Origin: Planctomycetota bacterium
GTDB taxonomy: Bacteria > Planctomycetota > UBA1135 > GCA-002686595
Direction: 5' to 3'
Assembly: GCA_012960475.1 (NCBI GenBank)
Contig: DUBE01000013.1
Location: 59,324-123,323, forward strand
Length of the DNA stretch: 64,000 bases
Part shown: positions 10,307 to 35,589 of the stretch, piece after piece
How positions within the stretch are numbered: the stretch's first letter is position 1
Layout of the letters: every line of letters starts with the position of its first letter
Notes under the pieces: generated by a model
Seen by the model: the letters and a program-made list of their open reading frames with translations, nothing else
What the model was told of the DNA's origin: nothing
Databases searched by the model: none
Made by a program: the position numbers and the translations under genes

Positions 10307-12301
10307 ATGTCGCTCTCCACACGCATCACCATGACCCTCGTCATCGTCGTAGCGGCCTTTGCCGTACTCGACGGCTGGGTGGTTCAGCGTGTATTTGGCG
10401 AGCGGTTTGATGCCCTCGAAGAGAGCAGCGCCCTGACGGACATGGATCGGGTCAGGCAAGCCCTTGAACAGGAAGTGCAGCAGCTTGCGAATCTGACCCA
10501 CTCATTGGCTGGCGCACCCTCATTGCGCAACGGAGAAGAGGGTGCAATGCCCAGGGCGGAGGAACTCATCGCCTTGGACTTGGATGTCTACTTCCTGCTT
10601 GGTCCGGCTGACCGAAGCCAGAACCGCCCAGTGCTGCGCTCCCGGATAGAGCTGCCAGCTGAACGGGACGATGCACAACTCACTAATTTCCCAAGAGCGA
10701 GTTGGTCTGGCCAGCACCCGCTGCTGACCGGAGATCTCAAGCCTCAACAAGACAAAGGAGCCCTGCGATCTAGCATCCAGCTGACCGAAGCTGGCCCAAT
10801 GCTACTGGCTGTGGACCCTGCCTGGTCTCCAACCGGCGATGCTCAGGATCAGATCCTGATCACCGGCCGCTTCCTCTCCTGGAATCGCATCGCCCGTCTG
10901 CGCGAACGAACAAAGGTTGAGTTCCAGGTCTGGCAACTGGACGGCCAAGATCAACTGCCCAAACACATCCTCCAACGCCTGCCCCAGGTCACCGGTTCTC
11001 CCACACCCCACTTGGAACAGGGTGACGAGTACCTCTTGGGCATGAGCACTTTCGACGATCTGCGCCAAAGACCTCAGCTGTTGATCGAGGCAAAACTGCC
11101 GCGAACCATCAGCGCCGAAGGACAAGCCGCCGTCACTTTCGGACGGATTTCAGTTCTCACCGGCGCCGCAGTCCTGGTACTGGCTCTGCTGATTCTCCTG
11201 CGGCGCATCGTGCTCAATCCTCTAGCTGCCCTGACTGACCACGCGGAATCGGTGGGCAGCACCGAGAACATCAGCCTGCGCATGAACTCACCACGCACGG
11301 ACGAACTCGGGCGCCTCTCGGGAGAGTTGGACTCAATGCTCGACAAGCTGGTGGAAGCACGTGCTGCCCTGGTGGACGCCGCACGCACCGCAGGCAAGAG
11401 CGAAGTGGCCACAGGAATCCTGCACAACGTGGGCAACATGCTTTCGGGGATAGGAATCTCTTCTGATGAACTGAGCGAGTCAATTGAGCTACTGGGGACT
11501 GATGATCTCAGCACCGTGGCCGCTGCCCTGGAAGAACATGCCGCAGACCTGGAGGGTTACCTCTGCGAAGACCCCCACGGCCAGCACCTGCCTCCCTTCG
11601 TGCAAGCCTTGGCCGAGCAACAGACCACCCAGCGAGATCGCCTGCGGCGAGAGCTGCGCTCCCTGCGTCAGGGCCTCGAACATGTGGCCGAGTTGGTCCG
11701 CGGGCAACAGCAATTCACCCAACGAGGCAGCTTGACCGGTGCGTTCAACCCCAGTGCTCTTATGGAAGAAGCCCTGCGTCTGGTGGAGCAAAGCCTGGGC
11801 CAGGATCCAGAGCTTGAGATCTTGCGCTTCTTCGATCCCAACCTGACCACAGTGCCAGGAGACCGCCACCGCACCCTGGACATCCTGGTCAACCTGATCC
11901 AAAACGCCTTCCAAGCCATGGAAGGACAGGTCGCGCCCCGGACCTTGATCCTGCGCACTCGCCGGGAACAGACCATCGCTTGCCTGGAGGTCGAAGATTC
12001 AGGACCCGGCATCGACCCCGCCCATCTGACCCAGGTCTTTGCCCCGGGTTTCACCACTCGCAAGGATGGTCACGGCTATGGCCTGCACACCGCCGCCAAC
12101 GCCGCCCTGGAAATGGGCGGCCACCTGGAAGCCCACCCATCCAGTTGCGCCCAGGGTGCTGCATTCCAGTTGCAGCTGTCAACTCAAAATGCGCACGCTC
12201 GACAATCAACTTCACAACATATCTCTGTCTCTATACCTGAAACCGCGCCTCCTTCAGGAGTGCCCTATGGAATACACCAATCGAATCCTAGTCGTGGATG
12301 A
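10307..12301 (+). CDS. membrane-bound sensor histidine kinase
   Basis: The N-terminal helix (residues about 5-25) and a second one near 285-305 bracket a periplasmic sensor of about 255 residues. This is followed by a HAMP domain ending near 'DELGRLSGELDSML'. The phosphoacceptor box is 'ATGILHNVGNML', the LHNVGN form common in environmental kinases in place of the classical HE[LF]RTPL. The ATPase domain shows the N box 'NLIQNAFQAM', the G1 box 'DSGPGI' and 'GHGYGLHTAANAALEMGG'. The gene follows the HAMP protein by 14 bp. Its 3' end overlaps the response-regulator start by 35 bp, a strong sign of translational coupling and a cognate pair. The sensed signal cannot be read from the sequence. Confidence 0.9.
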   Translation: MSLSTRITMTLVIVVAAFAVLDGWVVQRVFGERFDALEESSALTDMDRVRQALEQEVQQLANLTHSLAGAPSLRNGEEGAMPRAEELIALDLDVYFLLGPADRSQNRPVLRSRIELPAERDDAQLTNFPRASWSGQHPLLTGDLKPQQDKGALRSSIQLTEAGPMLLAVDPAWSPTGDAQDQILITGRFLSWNRIARLRERTKVEFQVWQLDGQDQLPKHILQRLPQVTGSPTPHLEQGDEYLLGMSTFDDLRQRPQLLIEAKLPRTISAEGQAAVTFGRISVLTGAAVLVLALLILLRRIVLNPLAALTDHAESVGSTENISLRMNSPRTDELGRLSGELDSMLDKLVEARAALVDAARTAGKSEVATGILHNVGNMLSGIGISSDELSESIELLGTDDLSTVAAALEEHAADLEGYLCEDPHGQHLPPFVQALAEQQTTQRDRLRRELRSLRQGLEHVAELVRGQQQFTQRGSLTGAFNPSALMEEALRLVEQSLGQDPELEILRFFDPNLTTVPGDRHRTLDILVNLIQNAFQAMEGQVAPRTLILRTRREQTIACLEVEDSGPGIDPAHLTQVFAPGFTTRKDGHGYGLHTAANAALEMGGHLEAHPSSCAQGAAFQLQLSTQNAHARQSTSQHISVSIPETAPPSGVPYGIHQSNPSRG

Positions 12302-13052
12302 TGATTCATCGATTCACGAAGCCTTCACCAAGATTCTGGCCAGCGATCACGGTTCGCATGAATCACTAGACGCCGCGCGGGCCGCATTCATGGGAGTACC
12401 TGACAAACAGCCCAAGCGCGGCTCTGACAAGTGTGAACTGCTGCACGCGCACCAGGGCGAAGAAGCTGTTCAAGCCGTCAAACAGGCCGTCGCAGCGGGC
12501 ACACCCATTGACCTGGCCTTTGTAGACGTTCGCATGCCCCCGGGCATGAATGGAGTCGAAACGGTGCGACATATCTGGCAGGTGGCACCCATGACCGAGA
12601 TCGTGCTCTGTACCGCCTGGTCGGACTACAGCCATGAAGAAACGCTGCAGGCCCTGGGACAGAACCACCGGCTCCTGATCCTGAAGAAGCCCTTCGAATC
12701 CATCGAAGTGCGTCAGATGGCGCTGGCCCTGCATGAAAAACGCCGGGCGGCAGAGCGGGAAGCCATCCTGATAGAAGATCTGCAGGCCGCATCAAGAGAG
12801 ACCAAATCCTATGCGGCCTCACTTGTAACAGCCAACCGAGCTCTCTCCCTTTCAAAGAAGGCGATGGACCACGCGGCCCGCTTGAAAACCCAAGCCCTCG
12901 AAGATCTGACATTGGAACTCCGCGACCTGATTGAGACTGTGATGGGACAGTTTCTTGCTACGAATGACCCTCAAGAGATGGAGCAAGCGATCAAACAGGC
13001 TCAGGACCTGCTGGCCCGGGCTGAGGAGGCCCGCGGCCACTCGCAGGCTTGA
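12267..13052 (+). CDS. response regulator with receiver and C-terminal coiled coil
   Basis: The ATG at 12267 is preceded by AGGAG (12256-12260) at good spacing. It starts the protein exactly before 'RILVVDDDSSIHEAF', so the in-frame extension to 12039 inside the kinase gene was rejected. The receiver has the acidic pair DDD, the phosphorylatable Asp in 'LAFVDVRMPPGMNG', a Thr in 'LCTAWSD' and the Lys in 'LKKPFE'. An insert of about 35 residues after the first helix ('LDAARAAFMGVPDKQPKRG') is unusual. The C-terminal 100 residues are helical, charged and probably coiled coil, with no DNA-binding domain. It should act through protein contacts. It is coupled to the kinase upstream by a 35-bp overlap. 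Confidence 0.88.
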   Translation: MEYTNRILVVDDDSSIHEAFTKILASDHGSHESLDAARAAFMGVPDKQPKRGSDKCELLHAHQGEEAVQAVKQAVAAGTPIDLAFVDVRMPPGMNGVETVRHIWQVAPMTEIVLCTAWSDYSHEETLQALGQNHRLLILKKPFESIEVRQMALALHEKRRAAEREAILIEDLQAASRETKSYAASLVTANRALSLSKKAMDHAARLKTQALEDLTLELRDLIETVMGQFLATNDPQEMEQAIKQAQDLLARAEEARGHSQA

Positions 13053-13564
13053 AAGCACAATCTAGAACCCTTCTGTTCTGGGACCATTGTCCACATTCTC
13101 GCGCCACAACTAGGGAAAGCACCTAGAACGAACTCCCTATGTGCCTGATGTGCCCAAGCCTCCCCGGTGCCGCCCGGTTCAAATCCTAAGTCCTTCACGA
13201 GAAGAAGGTTACGACGGCTTCTTGCTCGTCCACTGACTGGAGGCCTGCTCTTGTTCGGAGGAGTGCCTCCTTCCATAGCCTGTTCGGACCAACTTCGGAG
13301 CCTCACACGCCCAGTTCTCCCCAACTTGTCCACATGGGAAGTCCTATTTGACAGGATGGAAATTCCACCAAGCCTAAGTCGCTCTCGAGACTAGGGTTCG
13401 GACAGGTCTGAAAGGCAAGACCTTGACCAGTTGGAATTGTCTGATCTCACCACCAGGCTGTTCTCATTTCTTGGCTCCCCGATCCCGGAGAAAACAACAC
13501 ACTCGTGCCAGCGCCACAGCGCAAACGGCCCTCCAGGGCCGCCTGCCTGCTAAACTTCCCCTGC
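13053..13564. other. 512-bp intergenic stretch before lptB
   Basis: I see no convincing gene. A 75-codon + frame at 13167-13394 has no recognisable features or ribosome site. CTAGAAC (from about 13062) can pair with GTTCTGG across a six-base loop shortly after the response-regulator stop, a possible weak terminator. GGAGG (13257-13261) and CCTCC (13266-13270) form a small hairpin. The stretch is less GC-rich than the genes around it. Confidence 0.4.
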
Positions 13565-14317
13565 GTGGAAAGAGCCCTGCTGGAAGTCAATGGCCTGACC
13601 AAGAGCTATCGTCGGCGACGGGTGGTGGACGGGGTCAGCTTCAAGGTCGGCGCGGGAGAAATCGTCGGCCTGCTGGGTCCCAACGGAGCGGGCAAGTCCA
13701 CCAGTTTCCGCATGACCATTGGCCTGATCGTGCCAGACGCGGGCCAGGTGAGCATCAGCGGAGTTGACTGCAGCAAAGCCCCCATGTACCGCAGAGCGCG
13801 AATGGGCATGGGATACCTGCCCCAGGAGACAAGTGTTTTTCGCCAGATGACCGTACGCGACAACTTGCTGGCGGTATTGGAGGCCATGCCCATCTCACGC
13901 AAGGAGCGCCTCGCCGAAGCCCATCGGCTAATGGCTGAACTTGAGCTTGAACACCTGGAAAACAACCTGGGAGAAATCCTCTCAGGAGGCGAGCGACGTC
14001 GCTTGGAACTGGCCCGTGCCCTGGCCACCAAGCCCAAAGTGCTGCTGCTGGACGAACCCTTTGCCGGAGTAGATCCGATCAATGTGGAGGAAATACAGCG
14101 CCTGGTAGGTCGCCTGCGCGAGCAGGGTCTGGGAGTCTTGATCACCGACCACAATGTGCGTGAAACCCTGCAGAGCACCGACCGGGCCTACATCATCTTT
14201 CGCGGCCAGATCCTTCGTCACGGGGATGCGTCGCAGTTGATCACAGACCCCAAGGTGCGCGAGGTCTACCTGGGACACAAATTCGATTTGGACCTGGAGG
14301 CCAACGAACAGGCCTAA
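13565..14317 (+). CDS. lptB: LPS-export ABC ATPase, LptB
   Basis: LptB powers extraction of lipopolysaccharide from the inner membrane with LptF/G. The protein has Walker A 'GPNGAGKSTSF', the LptB-type Q-loop region 'MGYLPQETSVFRQMTV', signature 'LSGGERRRLELARALA', Walker B 'VLLLDEPFAGVDPI' and the switch His in 'LITDHNV'. These are close to the family. The start is uncertain. GTG 13565 begins 'ERALLEVNGLTKSY' and gives 250 residues, near the normal 240. A GTG at 13505 would add a 20-residue basic leader unlike the family. Neither has a clear ribosome site. lptA, lptC, lptF/G are not nearby. Its presence supports a diderm with LPS-like lipid. Confidence 0.9.
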   Translation: MERALLEVNGLTKSYRRRRVVDGVSFKVGAGEIVGLLGPNGAGKSTSFRMTIGLIVPDAGQVSISGVDCSKAPMYRRARMGMGYLPQETSVFRQMTVRDNLLAVLEAMPISRKERLAEAHRLMAELELEHLENNLGEILSGGERRRLELARALATKPKVLLLDEPFAGVDPINVEEIQRLVGRLREQGLGVLITDHNVRETLQSTDRAYIIFRGQILRHGDASQLITDPKVREVYLGHKFDLDLEANEQA

Positions 14318-14491
14318 GGTTCCTGGACTCCCGGTCTGGACCCTCATTGGATCCGAAAGCGTCGGCCGCTGGCCCTTGAGAGATGCGAGCCCCATGGCTA
14401 TCCTCATCGCCCCCATGATCGGCCCCGGCAGTTCTTGCAAGGACCATTCCCGGCAGAATCCCCACGCCACTTCATTCCCCCTTTGAGCGCC

Positions 14492-15244
14492 ATGAACATA
14501 GTCGCCTGCGTCAAACGAGTTCCCAACACCGAAGCGGTGGTTAAGGTTGCCGATGGAGGCACGTCCCTGGACGAGAGCGGCCTCTCCTACATGATTTCCT
14601 TCTATGACGAACTGGCCATTGAAGAGGCGGTTCGCACCAAGGAAGCCCACGGGGGTGAGGTCACAGTTCTGACTCTGGGGCCCAGCGAAGGCACCAAGGA
14701 GATCCGTGAATGCCTGGCCAAAGGCGGCGATCGCGCAGAATTGCTGGCCGACAGCAACTGGCTCTCCCGGGACTGCCGCGCCAGCGCCAAGGCTCTGGCT
14801 GCCAAACTCAGTGACCTGGGTGCGGATGTGGCCTTCATGGGCCGCGTGGCCACGGATAGGGACAACGCTGCGGTGGGACCGATGGTCGCCACCTACCTGG
14901 GTTGGGCTTGCGTCACCGATGTGGTCTCACTCGAAATCGCCGAGGACAAGGGCACTGCCAGGCGCGAAACCGAAACGGGCATTGAGACCATCGAGTTCTC
15001 CCTGCCCGCGGTCATCACATGCAACAAGGGGCTCAACGAGCCGCGCTACTCCAACCTCAAGGGGATCATGGCTGCCAAGAAAAAGCCCTTCGAAGAGAGT
15101 CCTGCAGAATTGGTGGACAACCAGGCGAGTGTGATCGCCCTGACGCCCCCTTCGCCCCGAGCGGAAGGCCGCATCCTGGGTACCGGACCAGATGCGGTAC
15201 CGGTCCTGATCGATGCATTACGCAACGAAGCCAAGGTCATCTAA
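14492..15244 (+). CDS. etfB: electron transfer flavoprotein, beta subunit
   Basis: EtfB and EtfA form the soluble FAD/AMP heterodimer that takes electrons from acyl-CoA dehydrogenases. The protein begins 'MNIVACVKRVPNTEA' and has 'EAVRTKEAHGGEVTVLTLGP', near-invariant parts of the AMP-binding fold. It continues with 'DLGADVAFMGRVATDRDNA' and ends with the usual extended arm that wraps around EtfA. The 250-residue length is standard. The ATG at 14492 was chosen because it starts the first beta strand; the upstream in-frame extension is not conserved in type. It lies 13 bp before etfA, so the two are co-transcribed. FadE at 3080 is a plausible electron donor. Confidence 0.95.
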   Translation: MNIVACVKRVPNTEAVVKVADGGTSLDESGLSYMISFYDELAIEEAVRTKEAHGGEVTVLTLGPSEGTKEIRECLAKGGDRAELLADSNWLSRDCRASAKALAAKLSDLGADVAFMGRVATDRDNAAVGPMVATYLGWACVTDVVSLEIAEDKGTARRETETGIETIEFSLPAVITCNKGLNEPRYSNLKGIMAAKKKPFEESPAELVDNQASVIALTPPSPRAEGRILGTGPDAVPVLIDALRNEAKVI

Positions 15245-29437: not shown

Positions 29438-29689
29438 AACGAAGGTTCCGATCACAGGTTTCAGGTGTTCTTGTTCAATTCCTGTAGTCTGCGTGTTGGG
29501 AGCACCAGGAAACAGGCTCATGACAACTCCCGGAGGGAATCAAAACGGGTCTCAGCGTGTAACAGGTGGGACACAGGCTCACCACGCAGAGCCCCAGAGA
29601 TGACCAGGCCTTGTTCGAATTCTGTCCAACAAGCCGCCAGAGTCCAAGATCACTTGGTCAATCGACCAATCTGATCTACAATCCAGTCA
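29438..29689. other. divergent intergenic region with a palindrome
   Basis: This region separates the minus-strand cdd-ligA set from the small + strand gene at 29690. It contains no convincing frame. A perfect inverted repeat TTGGTC-AATC-GACCAA lies at 29654-29669, about 20 bp before the ATG at 29690. It could be an operator or a 5'-leader hairpin of that gene. I recognise no strong -35/-10 pair. Confidence 0.35.
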
Positions 29690-29845
29690 ATGAAACAAAC
29701 ACTGATCACCATCGCGCTCAGCACCCTGCCCATCACAGGCATCTGGATGAAATTGAAGGGAGGCTGCTGAGGCACCGCGCGCGGAGTGGCCAGTTCGGCC
29801 CTCATTTTTGGCGGAGCGGTCGGCTTGTTCTACATGTGGAAGTGA
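29690..29845 (+). CDS. candidate 51-residue membrane selenoprotein (in-frame TGA as Sec27)
   Basis: From ATG 29690 the frame runs 25 sense codons to TGA at 29768-29770, then 24 more sense codons to a second TGA at 29843-29845. Both parts have the same strong GC3 bias (19/25 and 19/24 codons ending in G or C) and each encodes one membrane helix: residues 4-20 ('TLITIALSTLPITGIWM') and 33-50 ('VASSALIFGGAVGLFYMW'). Read as Sec, the TGA falls in a positively charged loop 'KLKGGC-U-GTARG', giving a vicinal Cys-Sec redox pair at the membrane surface. A bulged-U hairpin with a SECIS-like layout lies 13-33 nt after the TGA. Alternatives are a 26-codon peptide followed by chance openness, or a pseudogene. 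No Sec machinery genes are in the window. Family not recognised. Confidence 0.45.
29784..29803 (+). promoter_or_regulatory. candidate bacterial SECIS hairpin
   Basis: GAG (29784-29786), a bulged U (29787) and GGCC (29788-29791) pair with GGCC (29797-29800) and CUC (29801-29803), leaving the apical loop AGUUC. There are 21 nt between the TGA (29768-29770) and the loop. Bacterial SECIS elements have the loop roughly 16-37 nt after UGA, a G in the first two loop bases and, in E. coli fdhF, a bulged U in the stem. All three features are present, though the stem above the bulge is 4 bp, longer than in fdhF. Confidence 0.45.
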
Positions 29846-31885: not shown

Positions 31886-33331
31886 ATGCCTGTCACACGT
31901 CTACAGAACTACATCGGCGGCGAGTGGGTCGACTCCAACGCAAGCACCACATACCCAGTCACCAACCCCGCCAGCGGTGAAGTGATCGGTGAGTGCCCAC
32001 TGTCCAGCGCCGACGAATTGGATGCTGCAGTCCAATCAGCACGGGCGGCATTTGAAACCTGGCGCCGAGTTCCCGCCCAAGAACGCGTGCAGTACCTCTT
32101 CCGATTCAAGACACTGATGGAGAAGCACGCGGAAGAACTCGCCGCCATCGTCACCCGAGAAAACGGAAAGACCCTCTCCGAGGCAATGGGCAGCGTAGGC
32201 CGAGGTATCCAGATGATCGATACGGCCACCGGTGCGCCGAGCATGCTGATGGGACAGGCCCTTGAAGACATTTCAGCGGGCATCGATTGCGAGTCGATTC
32301 GCCAACCCATGGGCGTTTTTGCCTGCATCGCTCCGTTCAATTTCCCGGCAATGGTGCCCCTCTGGTTCTTCCCCTTCGCCGTGGCCTGCGGCAATACATT
32401 TGTCTGCAAGCCCTCGGAGCAAGTTCCCTTCAGCCAGAAACTCGTCTGGGAGCTGATTCACGAAGCAGGTTTTCCTCCCGGCGTTCTGAACCTGGTCAAC
32501 GGCGGCCGAGAAGTTGTGGAGAGCATGTGCTCCCATGCGGACATCGCCGGGATTTCATTTGTCGGATCGAGCCCGGTGGCCGAAAAGGTCTATGCGGCAG
32601 CCGCCAGCAACAGAAAGCGTGTGCAAGCTCTCGGGGGCGCCAAGAATTTCATCACCGTCATGCCCGATGCGGACATGGTGCACACAGCCAACAATGTCTG
32701 CGAATCGGCCTTTGGATGTGCAGGGGAGCGCTGCCTCGCGGCATCCGTCGTGCTTACCGTTGGCGAAGCCCACGGCCCCGTGCGCGCCGGACTGCAAGAG
32801 CAGATGGCCAAGATCGTGGTGGGCGATGGTTCCCAGCCTGGAGTGACCATGGGCCCCTTGATCAATGCGGACTCCAGACAGCGCGTGCTTGACTTCATTG
32901 AAAGCGGAGTGGCTGAGGGTGCCGAGTTGGTTGTGGATGGTCGCAAGGCCGATGTTCCAAGTGAGGGTTTTTTCATGGGGCCAACCCTCTTCGATGGTGT
33001 CACCCAAGACATGAAGATCGCCACAGAGGAGATCTTTGGCCCGGTACTTTGCATCCAACAGGTCGCCAGCCTCGACGAAGCCCTGGCCATTTCGAAGGCC
33101 CAACCCCTGGCCAACGCCAACTCCATTTTTACCAGCTCCGGCAAGTCCGCGCGCCAGTTTCGCTATGAGGTGGACGCCAGCATGGCCGGGGTCAACATCG
33201 GTGTGGCCGCACCCATGTCCTTTTTTTCCTTTGGAGGCGCCAAGGGTTCCTTCTTCGGCGACCTCAAAGCCCACGGCCGCGAAGCCTATGACTTCTTCAC
33301 GGACCGCAAGGTCTTCATCACGCGCTGGTAA
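31886..33331 (+). CDS. mmsA: (methyl)malonate-semialdehyde dehydrogenase, CoA-acylating
   Basis: This enzyme converts malonate semialdehyde (or methylmalonate semialdehyde) with NAD+ and CoA to acetyl-CoA (or propionyl-CoA) and CO2. The protein has the MmsA-type 'IAPFNFPAMVPLWFFPFA', the Glu-less 'ALGGAKNFITVMPDAD' and the catalytic Cys in 'FGCAGERCLAAS'. It ends 'GAKGSFFGDLKAHGREAYDF'. The 481-residue length is standard. It is first in a five-gene + strand set with beta-ureidopropionase, dihydropyrimidinase, an aminotransferase and PreA. In that company its job should be the last step, malonate semialdehyde from beta-alanine to acetyl-CoA. The next gene starts 9 bp later. Confidence 0.93.
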   Translation: MPVTRLQNYIGGEWVDSNASTTYPVTNPASGEVIGECPLSSADELDAAVQSARAAFETWRRVPAQERVQYLFRFKTLMEKHAEELAAIVTRENGKTLSEAMGSVGRGIQMIDTATGAPSMLMGQALEDISAGIDCESIRQPMGVFACIAPFNFPAMVPLWFFPFAVACGNTFVCKPSEQVPFSQKLVWELIHEAGFPPGVLNLVNGGREVVESMCSHADIAGISFVGSSPVAEKVYAAAASNRKRVQALGGAKNFITVMPDADMVHTANNVCESAFGCAGERCLAASVVLTVGEAHGPVRAGLQEQMAKIVVGDGSQPGVTMGPLINADSRQRVLDFIESGVAEGAELVVDGRKADVPSEGFFMGPTLFDGVTQDMKIATEEIFGPVLCIQQVASLDEALAISKAQPLANANSIFTSSGKSARQFRYEVDASMAGVNIGVAAPMSFFSFGGAKGSFFGDLKAHGREAYDFFTDRKVFITRW

Positions 33332-33340
33332 ACTGATCCC

Positions 33341-34207
33341 ATGTCAAGAACTTTGCGAGGCGGACTGATCCAGTGCGCCAATCCTCTCAACGATGAGAGT
33401 CTTCCGGTGGCCGAGATTCAGGCCGCTGCTTTTGAAAAGCATATCCCCTTGATTGAAGAGGCCGGGACCAGAGGCGTGCAAGTCCTTTGCCTGCAAGAGA
33501 TCTTCAACGGACCATACTTCTGCCCTGGCCAAGACCCCCGCTGGTACGATGCGGCAGAGACGGTTCCCGGCCCCACCACCGAGGCACTGACTCCTTACGC
33601 GATCAAGCACAGCATGGTGATCATCGTGCCGGTCTACGAAGAGGACGGCGCGGGCATTTTCTACAACACCGCCGCCGTAATCGATGCGGACGGGACTTAC
33701 CTGGGGAAATACCGCAAGAATCACATCCCCCAAACTTCAGGTTTCTGGGAGAAGTACTTCTTCAAGCCTGGCAACCTGGGCTATCCCGTATTCGCAACCG
33801 CCTACGGAAAAGTCGGCGTGTACATCTGCTATGACCGACACTTCCCCGAAGGCGCGCGAGCCTTGGGTTTGGCGGGAGCCGAGGTAGTCTTCAATCCCTC
33901 CGCCACGGTGGCGGGCCTTTCCCAATATCTCTGGAAACTGGAACAACCAGCCCACGCGGTTGCCAATGGTTACTTCATGGGCTGCATCAACCGGGTGGGC
34001 GAAGAAGCTCCCTGGAACATCGGGCGCTTCTATGGCTCGAGCTATTTTGTCGACCCGCGTGGTGAGTTCTTGGCAGAGGCTTCCGAAACGGAAGACGAAC
34101 TTGTGGTGGCGGACATGGACCTCTCTATCATAGACGAGGTCCGACGCATCTGGCAGTTCTATCGGGACCGCCGCCCTGAAACCTACGAATCGCTGACCGG
34201 CCTCTAA
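33341..34207 (+). CDS. beta-ureidopropionase (nitrilase-fold N-carbamoyl amidohydrolase)
   Basis: It hydrolyses N-carbamoyl-beta-alanine to beta-alanine, CO2 and ammonia. The nitrilase triad is visible: Glu in 'QVLCLQEIFNGPYF', Lys in 'KYRKNHIPQTSGFWEKYFF' and Cys in 'VGVYICYDRHFPEGARALG'. The 'FWEKYFFKPGN' stretch and 'LWKLEQPAHAVANGYFMG' match beta-ureidopropionases and N-carbamoyl-putrescine amidases more than aliphatic nitrilases. At 288 residues it is of normal size. The gene lies between mmsA (9 bp) and dihydropyrimidinase (5 bp), which fixes the pyrimidine assignment over the polyamine one. No gene symbol is fixed for this type; pydC is used in some genomes. Confidence 0.92.
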   Translation: MSRTLRGGLIQCANPLNDESLPVAEIQAAAFEKHIPLIEEAGTRGVQVLCLQEIFNGPYFCPGQDPRWYDAAETVPGPTTEALTPYAIKHSMVIIVPVYEEDGAGIFYNTAAVIDADGTYLGKYRKNHIPQTSGFWEKYFFKPGNLGYPVFATAYGKVGVYICYDRHFPEGARALGLAGAEVVFNPSATVAGLSQYLWKLEQPAHAVANGYFMGCINRVGEEAPWNIGRFYGSSYFVDPRGEFLAEASETEDELVVADMDLSIIDEVRRIWQFYRDRRPETYESLTGL

Positions 34208-34212
34208 GTCCC

Positions 34213-35589
34213 ATGGGAATCCTGATCAAGAACGGCACCATTGTCACGGCTCTCGACACAACCGTGGGCGATGTATTGACCCAGGACGGCGCGATCGTGG
34301 CGGTCGGAGCGAACCTTGAAGCGAACAGCGGCGACACCACCATAGATGCCAGCGGCCAGTATGTGTTTCCCGGTGGACTCGATCCCCATGTGCACATGGA
34401 GCTACCTTTCATGGGCACGATCTCTGCCGACGACTTCGAAACCGGCACTGCTGCGGGCGTAGCTGGAGGCACCACCTCCATCATCGACTTTGTGATCCCC
34501 GCCCGAGACCAGAACCTGATGGAGGGACTCGCCGAATGGCATGCCAAGGCGAAAAAGTCCGTAGCCGACTACGCCTTCCACATGGCGGTCACCTGGTGGG
34601 GTGACGAAAGTGCCGAGTGGATGCGCCGTTGTGTGCAGGAGGAGGGCATTCCCTCCTTCAAGACTTTCATGGCCTACCGCGGCGCCATCGGTGTGGACGA
34701 CCACGAACTGATCCAAGTCATGCGCACAGCCAAGAGTCTGGGCGCTTTGACCACCGTGCACGCAGAGCACGGGGACATGGTGGTGCACCTGCAGGACAAA
34801 TTGTTCGCCGAGGGCAAGACTGGCCCTGAGTACCACGCCCGCTCACGCCCCGCGCCTGTAGAAGCAGAAGCCACAACCCGCGCAATCATGCTGGCGCGCA
34901 TGACCCATGAGCCTCTCTATGTGGTGCATGTGACCACCGCCCAATCAGTGGCGGCCATCGCCGAAGCGCGCAGTCGCGGACAAAATGTGATGGGCGAAAC
35001 CTGCCCCCAGTATCTCCTGTTGGACGACTCGGTCTATTACAAGCCCGACTTCGAAGGAGCAGCAGCGGTCATGTCACCTCCGATCAGGCCAAAGGGTCAT
35101 CAAGAACCTCTTTGGGCAGCTCTTCGGTCCGGAACATTGGAAGTCGTCGCAACGGACCATTGCCCCTTCAACCAAAAGGGACAGAAGGACATGGGCATCG
35201 ATGACTTCCGCAAGATTCCCAATGGCGCGGCGGGCATCGAGCACCGCCTGGCATTGATGTACACCTACGGGGTGCTGGAGGGCCGCTTGAACCTGAACCA
35301 GTTTGTGGATGTGACCAGTACGCGAGCGGCCAAGATCTTTGGTCTCTATCCGCGCAAGGGCTCCATCACAGTGGGTGCCGATGCGGACTTGGTGATCTGG
35401 GATCCGGAAGCGAGTGGAACAATCTCCGTCAAGACCCACCACCACAAGGTAGATCGCAACATTTTTGAAGGCTTTGCCACCAAAGGAGCGCCATCGACAG
35501 TGGTGGTCAACGGCCAGGTGCAATACCAAGACGGCGATCTGCGCGTGACCCGCGGAGCAGGCCGTTACCTCAAGAGAAGCCTAGGATGA
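34213..35589 (+). CDS. hydA: dihydropyrimidinase (D-hydantoinase family)
   Basis: It opens dihydrouracil or dihydrothymine to the N-carbamoyl beta-amino acid. Metal ligands are visible in 'GGLDPHVHMELPF', the carbamylated Lys in 'FKTFMAYRG', His in 'TTVHAEHGD' and 'YVVHVTTAQS', and Asp in 'EVVATDHCPFNQKGQK', all in the order of the cyclic amidohydrolase family. The 458-residue length is typical. The stop overlaps the aminotransferase start by 4 bp (ATGA). Hydantoinase activity is possible, but the neighbours (PreA, ureidopropionase) indicate pyrimidine breakdown. Confidence 0.94.
   Translation: MGILIKNGTIVTALDTTVGDVLTQDGAIVAVGANLEANSGDTTIDASGQYVFPGGLDPHVHMELPFMGTISADDFETGTAAGVAGGTTSIIDFVIPARDQNLMEGLAEWHAKAKKSVADYAFHMAVTWWGDESAEWMRRCVQEEGIPSFKTFMAYRGAIGVDDHELIQVMRTAKSLGALTTVHAEHGDMVVHLQDKLFAEGKTGPEYHARSRPAPVEAEATTRAIMLARMTHEPLYVVHVTTAQSVAAIAEARSRGQNVMGETCPQYLLLDDSVYYKPDFEGAAAVMSPPIRPKGHQEPLWAALRSGTLEVVATDHCPFNQKGQKDMGIDDFRKIPNGAAGIEHRLALMYTYGVLEGRLNLNQFVDVTSTRAAKIFGLYPRKGSITVGADADLVIWDPEASGTISVKTHHHKVDRNIFEGFATKGAPSTVVVNGQVQYQDGDLRVTRGAGRYLKRSLG

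Follow-up and report, generated by a model that had tools for sequence, protein, structure and literature searches.

The C-terminal redox centre of animal thioredoxin reductase is a Gly-Cys-Sec-Gly motif, which works through selenenylsulfide chemistry. In the KCU-star family (NF033934) of small bacterial selenoproteins, an adjacent Cys-Sec (CU) pair is located at the very C-terminus, as the family name indicates, and the proteins of the DUF6132 family (PF19628) are small, with two TM segments and a Cys-containing loop between them. Adjacent Cys-Sec pairs are also present in HgcA (NF040863), SaoL (NF040728), SaoC (NF040734), the CopZ-like Csac_0668 and MbdU (NF045648). Moreover, the MerT-type mercuric transport selenoprotein (PF02411) is a small membrane protein that has both Sec and Cys. 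A catalogue of 2026 lists 119 prokaryotic selenoprotein families and subfamilies (PMC13188914).

In a 64,000-nucleotide stretch of DNA from a Planctomycetota bacterium (hereafter the window), a frame of 51 codons on the plus strand (29690-29842, followed by the stop codon TGA at 29843-29845) is interrupted solely by the TGA at 29768-29770, as an earlier note made from the letters of the DNA had stated. The frame has 26 codons, the internal TGA, 24 codons and the terminal TGA, and reads MKQTLITIALSTLPITGIWMKLKGGC-U-GTARGVASSALIFGGAVGLFYMWK. With a probability of roughly 85%, judged from sequence comparison, it encodes a small integral-membrane selenoprotein of an undescribed family, with Sec inserted at the UGA 29768-29770. 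The similar GC3 on the two sides of this codon, also claimed previously, was reproduced on the printed codons, at 20/26 (77%) before and 19/24 (79%) after. The gene had indeed been overlooked by the usual gene finding, since ORF calling with translation table 11 misses a gene whose middle codon resembles a stop.

Table 1. Positions of the predicted selenoprotein gene and its elements in the window.
Feature	Position	Strand	Evidence
Putative selenoprotein gene, 50 sense codons plus Sec, TGA-terminated	29690..29845	+	Frame conserved across 22 genomes; coding signal before and after the TGA
In-frame TGA, probably read as Sec	29768..29770	+	TGA in 22/22 members; tRNA-Sec, SelA, SelB and SelD in the genome
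Cys26-Sec27 codons TGC-TGA, core of the Cys-Sec-Gly motif, hairpin turn	29765..29770	+	Invariant, 22/22 members
First hydrophobic helix, residues 2-24; Gly17 invariant, Trp19 mostly conserved	29693..29761	+	AlphaFold2 H2-24; conservation
Second hydrophobic helix, residues 30-50, many small residues	29777..29839	+	AlphaFold2 H30-50; hydropathy of every member within 1.0-2.2
SECIS-type hairpin, 3 bp, bulged U, 4 bp, loop AGUUC; begins 13 nt past the TGA, within the CDS	29784..29803	+	Fold, covariation, RNAalifold

The product is predicted by AlphaFold2, using 22 sequences, to be a two-helix membrane hairpin that consists of helix 2-24, a turn of residues 25-29 and helix 30-50 (mean pLDDT 76.6, pTM 0.45), in which the turn carries the Cys-Sec pair within a Gly-Cys-Sec-Gly segment. 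Both hydrophobic helices are found in all members of the family, with a weaker N-terminal stretch in G062 and G029; the helix on either side of the TGA that had been proposed from the single sequence is thus seen in both the model and the hydropathy of the members. Only Gly17, Cys26, Sec27 and Gly28 are invariant among the 22 members, and the TGC that was noticed directly 5′ of the TGA is accordingly part of a TGC-TGA pair in all of them. The three positive residues reported for the loop are K21, K23 and R31. They might seem to orient the protein in the membrane, yet the loop has on average 1.6 K/R against 0.8 D/E over the family and the tails are positive too, so that the family means decide neither way and an orientation from charge was rejected.

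Compared to animal thioredoxin reductase, the protein shares a vicinal Cys-Sec pair flanked by Gly, and the selenenylsulfide chemistry proposed for it is alike; however, its 51 residues hold no FAD or NADPH domains, Sec is placed mid-protein in a membrane hairpin, and the two have no homology. It resembles the KCU-star proteins in being a small bacterial selenoprotein with adjacent Cys and Sec, but here a whole second helix follows the CU, and the HMM of that family gave no match. HgcA, SaoL, SaoC, Csac_0668 and MbdU belong to other protein families, and their listed NCBIfam models match no member. The MerT-type protein differs in its motif, C/SxxU instead of CU, and no Pfam match links the two. 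DUF6132 is similar in its general layout of a helix, a Gly-Cys-rich turn and a second helix, but was rejected as a distant relative because Pfam gave no match and DUF6132 is absent from 81/81 genomes of the window's family.

Searches against NCBIfam, Pfam and PHROG revealed no family that matches the selenoprotein, and all 22 members searched against NCBIfam 20.0 at E ≤ 1 gave only unrelated single weak matches. A sequence profile search of the PDB found no match, and Foldseek against the PDB returned only non-significant two-helix matches. None of the 119 catalogued families fits, and the NCBIfam models cited in the catalogue do not match (PMC13188914). Within the open-access literature, these comparisons of sequence uphold the earlier proposal of novelty and support a family that is new but belongs to a known kind, the bacterial selenoproteins, its unusual feature being the Sec-only distribution.

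We propose that the vicinal Cys-Sec pair cycles between the selenolate/thiol and selenenylsulfide forms at the membrane surface and might thereby reduce peroxides or disulfides; a partner encoded elsewhere, either of thioredoxin type or in the membrane, would then re-reduce the pair. Such a redox role, somewhat favoured by analogy, is read from the Cys-Sec motif itself, because neither conserved neighbours nor a known fold adds to it. In a true selenoprotein, the pair could instead be a binding site at the membrane for soft metals or metalloids such as mercury, copper or arsenic, and the protein would then serve as a sensor, a chaperone or a subunit of a transporter. The catalogue does hold metal-related Sec proteins with a CU motif (HgcA, SaoL, the CopZ-like Csac_0668 and MbdU), as well as a MerT-type mercuric transporter with C/SxxU (PMC13188914); however, the annotated neighbours include no metal-resistance gene, the members have no common neighbourhood, and no match to MerT/PF02411 was found, so we regard metal binding as unlikely and keep the redox role as the preferred reading.

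The gene is present in at least 22 genomes, that of the window included, all of which belong to one family of the window's class and represent about 16 genera. A scan with the single sequence found two planctomycete contigs, each of which has TGA at the corresponding codon. A profile search of the class from three close sequences reached 6 genomes, an apparent limit that was overturned when the profile was widened by one distant member, which added seven more genomes, and then built on 13 rows, which gave 22 genomes after inspection. The members have a median pairwise identity of ~31% and a minimum of 16%; nevertheless, each starts with an ATG 22-26 codons upstream of the TGA, contains TGC-TGA-GG(N), and stops 24-61 codons downstream. 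In the last profile search of the class, the 21 top-scoring matches have exactly one TGA each, in contrast to most of the later, chance-level matches, which have none. Among genomes of the same genus, G018 and G020 gave no hit, but both are below 80% complete and the absence there may reflect incompleteness. The weak hits without a TGA (L026, L032-L041 and others) were rejected as glycine-rich lipoproteins, fragments of large ORFs or chance matches, and four TGA-containing hits in G278 were considered as a second cluster until the one inspected (L035) proved unrelated. No members were found among the viral contigs and plasmids searched.

The earlier note had looked to homologues with either TGC or TGA at codon 27, and the family offers only half of this: TGA occupies the codon in 22/22 members and TGC in none. 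A search at profile sensitivity, which covered 154 genomes of the class and 392 of the phylum with C in the codon-27 column of the profile, a setting that favours Cys forms, found no match with Cys at this codon. We therefore think it probable that this is a Sec-only family, a membrane hairpin of ~50 residues with the invariant core Cys-Sec-Gly and no Cys counterpart.

The frame beyond the TGA is conserved in all 22 homologues, none of which ends at the TGA or shifts frame, the two outcomes that had been named as evidence against the gene. Among 17 representatives, the sense frame after the TGA showed an amino-acid similarity of z = 3.64, above 300/300 column shuffles, whereas the other five frames had no elevated signal; the six closest members gave the same sense-frame signal past the TGA. 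Over the 21 codons that follow the TGA, a stop occurs in 0/22 members in the sense frame, compared to 12/22 and 5/22 for the other forward frames. As composition alone would keep such a stretch open ~64% of the time, this openness is supportive rather than decisive; stronger evidence that the region probably codes comes from the substitution pattern. A second TGA terminates 13 of the 22 genes, and TAG or TAA the others; TGA thus serves as a stop in this family, and the internal one is set apart by its local context.

These data bear directly on the idea that a membrane peptide of 26 residues truly ends at the TGA and is followed by a conserved RNA hairpin acting as an attenuator or terminator. 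The stub MKQTLITIALSTLPITGIWMKLKGGC would indeed form a single membrane helix, and the hairpin is conserved. Against this, the downstream frame is open in 22/22 members under selection at the amino-acid level, and it codes for a second hydrophobic helix about as long as the first before the frame ends 24-61 codons later, which makes a genuine stop at the TGA very improbable.

An antisense ORF of 51 aa at 29650-29805 (-) overlaps the gene and shares its wobble position, and its frame is open within the overlap in six relatives. Were this ORF the real gene and the sense frame its shadow, the signal of the antisense frame before the TGA (z 1.74 for 17 representatives; p 0.014 for the six closest members) would be accounted for. 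After the TGA, however, the antisense frame falls to z -0.95 against the z of 3.64 in the sense frame. Within the window's genus, the conserved block spans the sense ATG to the sense stop and so passes the antisense ATG, whereas the antisense C-terminus is not conserved. Antisense coding leaves both the TGA and the SECIS hairpin unexplained; we hold it to be still less probable than the peptide stub, and the antisense ORF is probably a shadow of the sense gene. The weakest reading, a pseudogene or sequencing error that put a nonsense mutation into an ordinary Cys- or Trp-containing small protein, fits one in-frame TGA viewed in a single genome but has a negligible probability when the same TGA recurs in 22 independently assembled genomes with identity down to 16% and no Cys/Trp counterpart was found.

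Downstream of the TGA, the hairpin GAG-U-GGCC-AGUUC-GGCC-CUC was located as previously described, with its bulged U at 29787 and its loop AGUUC beginning 21 nt past the TGA. Folding bore it out in part: the 21-nt element itself reaches -11.5 kcal/mol (z = -3.8, 0/200 shuffles as good), but in 43 nt of context the energy is unexceptional (z = +0.4), so the hairpin alone proves nothing. A similar pattern, which was written with the window hairpin in view, follows 12/2055 TGAs of the window on both strands. Taken singly, the window hairpin is therefore a weak case.

The alignment of the homologues adds covariation. In 21 sequences aligned from the TGA, 89.9% of the cells in columns 18-25/29-36 are paired, compared to 78.8% after shuffling, and 22 cells are changed on both sides, compared to 9.1. 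The covariation score is 0.390 versus 0.219 in shuffled alignments, none of 500 shuffles being as good, and slid versions of the pairing collapse. An independent run of RNAalifold returned the same structure. Most of the unpaired cells arise because the hairpin of the window's genus is a variant, in which the bulged U shifts the lower three pairs. The distance from the hairpin to the TGA is nearly fixed among members, and most have a loop [A/G]G(U/G) ~21-22 nt past the TGA. The bacterial SECIS model, as quoted, has a spacing of 16-37 nt and a G among the first two loop positions (PMC13188914), and the family hairpin fits it in both loop G and spacing. Neither the Rfam SECIS_1 model nor an Rfam scan near the gene gave a match; SECIS_1 matched no control either and is thus uninformative here.

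The genome of the window (3.83 Mb, 90% complete) encodes a tRNA-Sec with a UCA anticodon (73.7 bits) and has matches to SelA (382 bits), SelB (348 bits) and SelD (334 bits), so the lack of selB or selC that had been raised as a ground for rejection does not apply. Its selD gene (L028, G000:C66:5443-6390) contains one in-frame TGA in the context TDYAACAG-U-AAKMPMG; SelD is itself a selenoprotein in this genome and serves as an internal positive control. SelA was found in 144/154 genomes of the class and in 21/22 carrier genomes, the exception (G059) being 76% complete. As a separate observation, the SelA match of G061 (G061:C34:3930-5021) holds an in-frame TAG, which points to a broken gene, an assembly error or another recoding.

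It is the homologues that carry the case for the selenoprotein gene, because 22 diverged genomes have retained the TGA together with the open frame past it and the hairpin. By sequence evidence, UGA 29768-29770 is the 27th codon of a continuous selected frame, and the conserved, covarying hairpin downstream is placed as a SECIS. Given the selected frame, the hairpin in this position and the full machinery, SelB-GTP-Sec-tRNA most likely inserts Sec at the internal UGA, and a second TGA, a TAG or a TAA would terminate the protein.

According to the deep-Sep paper, every selenoprotein known to date seems to have a Cys homologue, and the homology filter of deep-Sep would discard a selenoprotein without one, searches for Cys/Sec pairs being likewise dependent on such homologues (PMC12013277). 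A small, membrane-bound, Sec-only family evades tools of this type as well as ordinary gene finding, and more such genes may therefore be hidden, especially in Sec-rich planctomycetes. In addition, a 50-residue protein with an invariant Cys-Sec-Gly would be a natural scaffold of very small size for selenium chemistry in a membrane.

Within the window's genus, the neighbourhood of the gene is conserved, with cdd, ligA and a gene for a 152-aa protein to one side and a gene for a 601-aa multi-pass membrane protein to the other. Outside this genus, no neighbour recurs beyond sister species; the gene thus appears free-standing and its context yields no functional clue. In G024 (L066, ~11150-15000), it lies near a metallo-beta-lactamase/rhodanese fusion, a membrane-tailed rhodanese and a TauE-type permease, identified by eye, an arrangement resembling a sulfane-sulfur detoxification cluster that is not common to the other members. 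Elsewhere in the window, an aldehyde dehydrogenase, a carbon-nitrogen hydrolase and a hydantoinase/dihydropyrimidinase-like gene stand in a row at 31886-35589; they are conserved in the genus and together look like an operon for reductive pyrimidine degradation. Upstream of the gene in 5/22 members (0.04 expected from mononucleotide shuffles), a two-box motif GTCAC-N(15-17)-CGTA is located ~40 nt or less from the start codon. Its carriers, G044, G075, G076, G058 and G059 (L126, L128, L136, L133 and L131, respectively), belong to related genera, and the motif resembles a promoter for an extracytoplasmic-function sigma factor, followed by a very short leader, and would hint at stress control.
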